This document shows, one piece after another, positions 6,599-44,849 of a stretch of 64,000 nucleotides of DNA. The notes beneath the pieces are model-generated. The model saw only the letters and a program-made list of their open reading frames with translations. It was not told where the DNA came from and did no database searches. The position numbers and the translations under genes are program-made. The DNA lies in the NCBI GenBank assembly GCA_900318445.1, contig ONKO01000014.1, positions 1 through 64,000 of the forward strand, read 5' to 3'. Numbering within the stretch: position 1 is the first letter of the stretch; each line of letters opens with the position of its first letter. The stretch is from an uncultured Bacteroidales bacterium. Its GTDB lineage: Bacteria > Bacteroidota > Bacteroidia > Bacteroidales > UBA932.

Positions 6599-6705
6599 GT
6601 GGCGCTTAAATAGTTGAATACTAAACGATTAGAGTAACTGACGGGTATGCTATTCATACCCGTCAGTTACTCTAACGCGCTGATTATAAGGTGTATAAGC
6701 GCCAC
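6599..6705. repeat. 107-bp palindromic intergenic element, copy 1
   Basis: Outer arms GTGGCGCTTA (6599-6608) and TAAGCGCCAC (6696-6705) are a perfect 10-bp inverted repeat. A central 47-nt hairpin (6629-6675) has a perfect 21-bp stem and a 5-nt loop, and contains the core AACTGACGGGT. Spacers of 20 nt separate arms and hairpin. Copies 2 (30722-30828) and 3 (44743-44849) have the same total length, spacing and core. It carries no reading frame of note. It could be a REP/MITE-like mobile repeat or a structured RNA or terminator. Confidence 0.85.
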
Positions 6706-23255: not shown

Positions 23256-23331
23256 ACGATTTTCTTCGATTTGCCGAAAGGCCTCTTTCGCGAACTTGCC
23301 GTAAACGGCTGATTACCAGCATTGTAAAAAA

Positions 23332-23361
23332 TTCTCTTTAGGCTGTTCGGCCTAAAGAGAA
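23332..23361 (-). terminator. rho-independent terminator after gcvPB
   Basis: A perfect 12-bp stem (23332-23343 with 23350-23361) with a 6-nt loop. On the minus strand it is followed by six T, ending the glycine cleavage operon; A-runs on both sides would let it work in either direction. Confidence 0.8.
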
Positions 23362-23406
23362 AAAATTAGAACGCTGATAGACAGCGGATTAGGTGTGGTT
23401 CGCCGA

Positions 23407-30721: not shown

Positions 30722-30828
30722 GTGGCGCTTAAGTCATTAATAATTAGTAAGTTAGCACAACTGACGGGTTGTGTTTGAATACCCGTCAGTTGTGCTAATC
30801 GATTGGCAGTCAATGAGATAAGTGCCAC
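30722..30828. repeat. 107-bp palindromic intergenic element, copy 2
   Basis: Outer arms GTGGCGCTTA (30722-30731) and TAAGTGCCAC (30819-30828), one mismatch that still allows G-U pairing. The central 47-nt hairpin (30752-30798) has a perfect 18-bp stem, an 11-nt loop and the core AACTGACGGGT. Same length and spacing as copies 1 and 3. A partial extra arm GTGGCGCCTTA lies just upstream, near 30694. Confidence 0.85.
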
Positions 30829-44742: not shown

Positions 44743-44849
44743 GTGGCGCTTATGTTGCTGATTACTAATGTGTTAGCACAACTGACGGGTGCGTTTTGAA
44801 TACCCGTCAGTTGTGCTAACACATTGATTTCGAATTATTTAACTGCCAC
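44743..44849. repeat. 107-bp palindromic intergenic element, copy 3
   Basis: Outer arms GTGGCGCTTA (44743-44752) and TAACTGCCAC (44840-44849) are imperfect. The hairpin is extended to a perfect 24-bp stem (44767-44790 with 44802-44825), within which the 47-nt core (44773-44819) matches copies 1 and 2 in size and place. Core motif AACTGACGGGT. Confidence 0.85.

Follow-up and report, generated by a model that had tools for sequence, protein, structure and literature searches.

Within the window, the 64,000-nucleotide stretch of an uncultured Bacteroidales genome analysed here, a palindromic element of 107 bp occurs at three places (6599-6705, 30722-30828 and 44743-44849), which raises the question of what kind of element this is and by which means it has been multiplied at a constant length. 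In the preliminary description of this DNA, selection on a folded RNA or on a cruciform was put beside a mobile REPIN/MITE-like family moved by an absent transposase. The length, arms, core and hairpin given there for the three copies were all found again.

Copies, hairpin and spacers of the 107-bp element

In copy 1 (6599-6705), identified both by blastn and by a covariance model, the outer arm GTGGCGCTTA occupies 6599-6608 on the plus strand and its partner arm 6696-6705. The central 47-nt hairpin (columns 31-77 of the element) lies at 6629-6675 and is flanked by a left dyad unit resembling the IHF consensus, TAAn4YTGAnnATCARn4TTA (columns 9-33, 6607-6631), and by a right dyad unit that is its mirror image (columns 75-99, 6673-6697). 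The hairpins of copies 2 and 3, also of 107 bp, are found at 30752-30798 and 44773-44819. Apart from the outer arm, these features are given without a strand.

As the preliminary description had called for, the search was extended to the draft genome of the window (2,308,810 bases, or 2.31 Mb; 32 contigs; 88% complete). A covariance model built from 39 copies gave 98 matches, each 107 bp long and covering model positions 1-107. Palindromic as the element is, it is found on both strands, so that the matches stand for 49 places. Thirty-nine of the 49 copies belong to the model, and the other 10, outside it, were recovered by it. The 49 places of this family, hereafter family A, are a lower bound (150 of 603 first-look candidates were scored), and the genome thus holds at least 49 full-length copies, each of 107 bp. 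With copy 1 as the sole query, blastn gave 76 matches in the same genome (best E 9.8e-51).

According to a rough gene caller, 44 of the 45 family A copies that could be classified are intergenic and one lies inside a predicted ORF; four more copies, at contig edges, fall outside these 45. By the same gene calling, the 44 oriented sites comprise 24 tandem, 14 convergent and 6 divergent ones. Abutting direct repeats of at least 5 bp (5-10 bp) were seen in none of the 49 copies, and hence no target-site duplication of that size; repeats of 2, 3 and 4 bp were seen in 4, 2 and 1 copies, respectively. With a loose flank filter, 17 of the 49 copies adjoin a second, mosaic repeat with GATGTACGTACATC palindromes, and a repeat of this type runs from 6706 to about 6766 in the window, beside copy 1. 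Around some copies there are arrays of a short CACCTGCAACGTTTTGGCC-type repeat (L023:60-660; L024:900-1100 and 1800-1960).

When both halves of 39 copies were pooled, the half-element read C-GTGGCGCTTAA-n4-YTGAnnATCAR-n4-TTAG(AGT or CAC)AACTGACGGGT-apex, followed by its mirror image. The central hairpin has a reliably paired stem of 18 bp and an apex of 11 nt; with the last three pairs formed as well, these become 21 pairs and a loop of 5 nt. The stem-flank difference that had been read as offset on the opposite arm was borne out on this larger set, the inner-stem exchange of AGT/ACT for CAC/GTG being matched on the opposite side in nearly every one of 39 copies. At columns 35, 36 and 37, 15, 16 and 14 of these copies are changed on both sides and 2, 1 and 3 are unpaired; the three columns switch together as a block and therefore count as few events. 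Two-sided changes amounted to 59 cells vs 31.0 in shuffles, and none of 500 shuffles reached 59. The number of pairs with a two-sided change was not in excess in the 39 copies (6 vs 6.9 in shuffles), because few columns carry the covariation signal. Outer arms and hairpin are present as first described, and the compensated changes hold for the inner stem. In the outer arms, no covariation was seen at columns 6-8, where 4, 9 and 6 of the 39 copies are unpaired. The core variants ACCGGACGGGT and ACCAGACGGGT occur in three copies (two on L208, one on L209), of which two are fully compensated and one is not.

The spacers had been called poorly conserved. For family A this is not the whole account, as the spacers contain a conserved dyad motif: columns 21-33 read WATCARNNNNTTR and columns 9-21 read WATCARNNNNTTR on the other strand, so that each spacer is a symmetric unit. 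Among the 98 half-sites of family A, 28 carry the motif exactly and 64 with at most one mismatch, compared with background frequencies of 4.6e-5 and 4.7e-4, respectively, in 197,124 windows. In two further repeat families of the same genome, B and C (see below), the corresponding counts with at most one mismatch, taken as the best of five registers, were 13 of 20 half-sites (10 copies) and 2 of 12 (6 copies, a weak fit), for about 0.2% of random positions. A strict form of the dyad pattern matched none of the 49 family A copies, and its sole match in this genome was a family B copy.

The WATCARNNNNTTR dyad contains the consensus of E. coli IHF in its R form. The conventional consensus is WATCAAnnnnTTR (PMC10380432). 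No pair covariation was observed across the spacer dyads of family A, the pairs 12-30 to 20-22 being near or below independence. Local hairpins inside the spacers were rejected on this ground, and duplex binding of the dyads is preferred. The dyad that recurs between families on each side of the hairpin, with its IHF consensus and its lack of pair covariation, has the look of a double-stranded target for a DNA-bending protein. Genes of the DNABII (HU/IHF) class are represented in the draft genome by one clear match, on contig C15, and one weak match. A homodimeric DNABII protein would favour a symmetric site.

RAYT genes and their repeats in the genome and the genus

Of the two branches of the preliminary description, the mobile one proved the better; its statement that the transposase is absent had to be given up. 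The gene of a divergent REP-associated tyrosine transposase (RAYT; HUH/Y1) lies on contig C8, where its ORF (L012:1236-2354, minus strand) stands between family A copies at L012:1001-1107 and L012:2369-2475. In the draft genome, the profile PF01797 (Y1_Tnp) marks four places, three of which are RAYT-like genes. The fourth, on C31, has the appearance of a cytidylate kinase and was dropped as a RAYT.

Each of the three RAYT-like genes is located between two palindromes of one type, family A on C8, family B on C21 and family C on C15, so that the repeat type matches the RAYT. Family A is present at at least 49 places, family B at about 36 and family C at 8, the last two figures being tallies of distinct places; many of the family B matches cover the hairpin only. 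One family B copy, with the hairpin TTCTCTTTAGGC and of the type flanking the RAYT on C21, lies inside the window at 23291-23402 (ends set by eye, no strand assigned).

The C8 protein scored 27.5 bits against NF047646 (REP_Tyr_transpos), for a cut-off of 80, and against PF01797 21.7 bits as a trimmed protein and 23.6 bits as the genomic frame, for a cut-off of 23. Its family matches stop near residue 145, and the remainder gave no Pfam family at E<=1. Across 25 RAYT sequences, H58 and H60 (the HUH motif), Y118 and N122 are invariant. In an alignment of proteins from named records (A5), all 39 relatives matched NF047646 at E<=0.01, the best at 1.6e-12. For the relative L216, which is 50% identical to the C8 RAYT, the predicted structure had a mean pLDDT of 92.7, and the only PDB match at E<=0.001 was 4er8 (E 2.4e-5; 140 aligned columns of 309 residues), a RAYT bound to a REP hairpin. 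The RAYTs of this group are long, mostly about 290-370 aa (around 310), with mostly [ND]HxH and YxxNN motifs.

The association was then followed across the genus. Seventy-three loci around PF01797 hits were collected; a filter on protein motifs recognised a RAYT ORF in 53 of them, and the other 20, in which it found none, were dropped. With a matched flank defined as a local score of 15 or more between the two 500-bp flanks, a repeat common to both was found at 33 of the 53 RAYT loci vs 6 of 636 mismatched controls from different genomes. In a second set, made from named records (80 kept of 235 confirmed relatives, 78 with enough flank), the figures were 36 of 78 vs 18 of 936, with controls that could share a genome. 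The two sets partly overlap and so are not independent, and 20 of the 53 and 42 of the 78 loci have no matched flank at this threshold. All 80 kept relatives belong to Bacteroidales or Bacteroidia, many of them from ruminant stomachs.

Furthermore, similar RAYTs tend to have similar hairpins. With 69 of 131 loci usable and 15 pairs dropped, RAYT identity and hairpin similarity were correlated with r = 0.23, a value reached in none of 500 permutations. The mean hairpin score was 12.8 for the 26 pairs at 60-90% RAYT identity vs 5.5-5.9 for the 2305 pairs below. A score of 12 or more was obtained for 8 of these 26 pairs, 18 falling short of it, and for 8 of the 2305 pairs below 60%. The link between the element and RAYT is strongly supported.

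In related genomes, model R1 matched 13 of 24 others of the same genus and none of 16 from other families. By eye, the hairpins and arms of the congeners have other sequences in the same layout, and among the matches listed and their loci the element measures 97-112 bp, mostly 105-107. Further copies thus exist in the genome, and the relatives, instead of varying freely in length without covariation, keep a similar length with other, mostly still paired hairpins; neither outcome refutes the first description.

A dyad-only pattern, silent on inner pairing, was found in 30 of 121 genomes of the genus (own genome included), with no control hits. Taking one hit per genome, at least 10 of the 16 inner positions are paired in 22 of the 30, for a chance of 0.2% each, and the outer arms reach at least 7 paired positions out of 10 in 10 of the 30 vs 2.2% of mismatched controls. 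Over the whole order, 27 of 198 genomes matched (own included) and a reversed control pattern matched in 7; none of the 10 order-wide hits fetched reached 10 of 16 paired positions. In two genomes from other families of the order (G033 and G182), 9 and 6 dyad hits are repeat copies without a strong hairpin; by eye, these are possibly other RAYT repeats.

The presence of a PF01797 match goes with that of the elements, both for R1 (13 of 14 genomes with elements vs 5 of 11 without; Fisher p about 0.02) and for the dyad pattern (27 of 30 vs 62 of 91; Fisher p about 0.02). One genome (G001) has seven model matches, yet no PF01797 hit. In addition, the neighbours of copies 1 and 2 were searched in 61 genomes for empty sites. 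The gene before copy 2 has orthologues in three congeners, the gene downstream of copy 2 is missing in all five related loci compared, and the gene downstream of copy 1 had no match in 60 other genomes at E<=1e-20, so that these comparisons yielded no empty site.

Proposed mechanism and competing explanations

With a probability of about 80%, we consider the element to be a non-autonomous REPIN-like mobile repeat that is copied by its cognate RAYT and carries a DNA-bending chassis. In the proposed mechanism, the RAYT would act as a Y1/HUH single-strand transposase, and the one whose gene lies between two copies on C8 would copy the element. The hairpin tip and the outer arms would form the family-specific part, which the RAYT would recognise in its folded, single-stranded state, bind and cleave. 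The shared part would be the pair of mirror-image ATCARn4TTA dyads, to which a host protein of the DNABII class (HU/IHF) would bind in double-stranded form. Such a protein may introduce a bend to the left and right of the hairpin, which would bring the outer arms closer to its base and favour hairpin extrusion; it could also fix the spacing, whence a length of exactly 107 bp. Several observations speak against this account: the RAYT loci with no matched flank, the low profile scores of the C8 protein, the dissimilar hairpins of 18 of the 26 closer RAYT pairs and the similar ones of 8 of the 2305 distant pairs, the lack of an empty site and of the canonical REP layout, the strict dyad pattern that misses family A, the weak fit of family C, the outer arms paired in 10 of 30 congener hits, and the genome G001.

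As a tentative extension, less probable than not, we propose a bipartite mobile repeat. Its shared chassis would consist of two symmetric sites for HU/IHF-type homodimers at a fixed helical spacing, and its exchangeable hairpin address would be read by one long-type RAYT only. From one species to another the chassis would stay, whereas RAYT and hairpin would be replaced jointly, and transposition by the RAYT would require that the host protein bend the DNA.

Instead of a mobile repeat, the element could be mainly a chromosomal site used by the host, namely a cruciform between two sites of DNABII bending, which would serve to organise or insulate the nucleoid and whose link with RAYT would be historical. 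Such a role has been proposed for the IHF-binding repeats of E. coli, and it would agree with the dyads conserved in families A and B, with the fixed 107-bp length in family A, with the intergenic position of 44 of the 45 classified copies (four more being at contig edges) and with the presence of a DNABII gene. We nevertheless regard it as unlikely, if worth serious attention, as the repeat type follows the RAYT, each of the three RAYT-like genes of this genome having a type of its own, and model R1 is found in none of the 16 genomes of other families. An action on transcripts, as a bidirectional terminator or an mRNA-stabilising hairpin under RNA selection and spread by any mechanism, appears improbable. 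The absence of a T-run after the family A hairpin (by eye), the 24 tandem and 6 divergent sites among 44 oriented ones and the spacer dyads without covariation all speak against it, as does Rfam, which gave no match in the window at gathering score; the folded-RNA branch of the preliminary description has thus received no positive support. On the other side stand the compensated changes of the hairpin, the 53 3' vs 39 5' ends among neighbouring genes, the 14 of 44 oriented sites that are convergent vs 8 of 53 gaps in the window, and terminator-like A- and T-tracts seen by eye on the stem in some congeners.

Compensated changes could also arise without selection, if the arms of a passive repeat were homogenised by template switching (quasi-palindrome correction). 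The distant outer arms do not covary at columns 6-8 and the close arms do, and columns 35-37 change as one block, in keeping with this process. As an account of the whole family we give it little credence, since it leaves unexplained the RAYT flanked by copies, the constant 107-bp length and the different hairpins that go with different RAYTs. Template switching may account for part of the covariation, selection and switching being inseparable with the present data. Finally, terminal inverted arms (GTGGCGCTTA ends) and a dispersed spread would suit a classical MITE of a DDE transposase; this is very improbable, given that abutting direct repeats of at least 5 bp were seen at none of the 49 copies and that the gene lying between two copies encodes a Y1 transposase. 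The preferred reading therefore remains that of a mobile repeat copied by its RAYT.

Relation to known repeat systems

In several respects, the element resembles the REPIN/RAYT systems (REPtrons), in which symmetric, hairpin-forming repeats are dispersed, the RAYT gene is flanked by its own repeat and several RAYT-repeat pairs can occur per genome (PMC8049555, PMC3733652, PMC3116915). Here too, a cognate Y1/HUH RAYT is flanked by repeat copies (on C8, and at 33 of 53 loci in the genus), copies are many, dispersed and extragenic (at least 49, with 44 of 45 classified as intergenic), and the protein shows an HUH motif, a catalytic Tyr and, in the model of its 50% identical relative, a RAYT-like fold, although the C8 protein scores far below the NF047646 cut-off. 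However, two inverted REPs with a GT[AG]G foot 0-2 nt 5' of each hairpin were not found. No GTRG foot adjoins the hairpin; GTGG is present at both ends of family A, yet 20 nt or more from it. A single central hairpin of 47 nt replaces the two REP hairpins, and two IHF-like dyads are present. Since the foot-plus-hairpin unit is missing, the element is not a canonical REPIN. The RAYTs also differ in length, being here mostly about 290-370 aa, for published subclass medians of 148-238 aa except in subclass 2.3 (PMC6006769).

The nearest group by phylum is TnpAY1 subclass 2.6, whose Bacteroidetes RAYTs have already been described as flanked by 'atypical secondary structures' (PMC6006769). As in the present case, RAYT-like genes there have non-canonical structures on their flanks, and these are found again elsewhere in the genome. 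That survey gives for this subclass a median of 179 aa, NH[LIV]H, YIH[QN]NP and weaker structures without GT[AG]G, whereas the proteins studied here have about 310 aa, mostly [ND]HxH and YxxNN, and a strong hairpin; the length and motifs of the subclass are not theirs. By their features, they can be likened to subclass 2.3, which has long proteins (median 325 aa) with NHYH; that subclass is, however, mostly proteobacterial, with YVDLNP, and no REP-like sequences were found for it in the survey (PMC6006769). The 'double foot' REPs of subclass 2.4, with GTGG at one end and CCAC at the other (PMC6006769), resemble family A but not families B and C, which have other ends.

The hairpin apex itself can hold an insertion sequence. 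Six of the 64 contig ends (two of the 64, on C1, read N) break off 95-99 bases into a sequence starting with GGCTCACCGGATAATTTCCGTG; they belong to C4, C5, C11, C12, C31 and C32 (L313, L322, L323, L321, L040 and L031), and in each of the six the junction with a family A element falls after its column 57 or 58, which is in the apex. Beyond the shared 22 bases, the sequence continues in two different ways, as would be the case with the two ends of one insertion sequence. Among 330 records searched, in which one of the six junctions is present in two overlapping loci, there was one other occurrence of GGCTCACCGGATAATTTCCGTG, at L266:3715-3813 in another species, by eye inside the element downstream of its RAYT. 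The exact end of the insertion sequence was not found in viral contigs, nor one end in plasmids, nor the other end in phages. Insertion sequences that target REPs are known, among them IS621, ISPpu9 and ISRm22 (PMC1525189), and they likewise insert at one structural place of the repeat. The present one has the 22-bp end GGCTCACCGGATAATTTCCGTG and its six junctions in the apex.

An IHF consensus inside the repeat, found here by sequence in 64 of 98 half-sites with at most one mismatch to WATCARNNNNTTR, recalls the RIB/RIP repeats (BIME-1) of E. coli. These are palindromic intergenic repeats with an IHF site between two REPs. Our element is likewise a palindromic intergenic repeat with an IHF-type site, but with two mirror-image sites around one hairpin.

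Within the open-licence literature, no paper was recognised as describing these repeats, and the initial statement that no description was known thus stands for the exact family; it does not stand for the kind, REPIN/RAYT systems having already been described (PMC6006769). The published RAYT experiments consulted (PMC8266576) concern proteobacterial proteins. The uncultured Bacteroidales genus offers many genomes with one or more RAYT-repeat pairs, in which the hairpin address changes and the putative bending chassis recurs, and these many natural RAYT-substrate pairs provide a route to the rules by which RAYTs recognise their repeats. Two further matters become directly testable, namely whether RAYT transposition involves a host factor and what lies behind the long-noted association of IHF with palindromic repeats. 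With a central hairpin in place of two REPs and a long RAYT encoded between its copies, the 107-bp element is akin to the bacterial REPIN repeats already known, but of an unusual kind.
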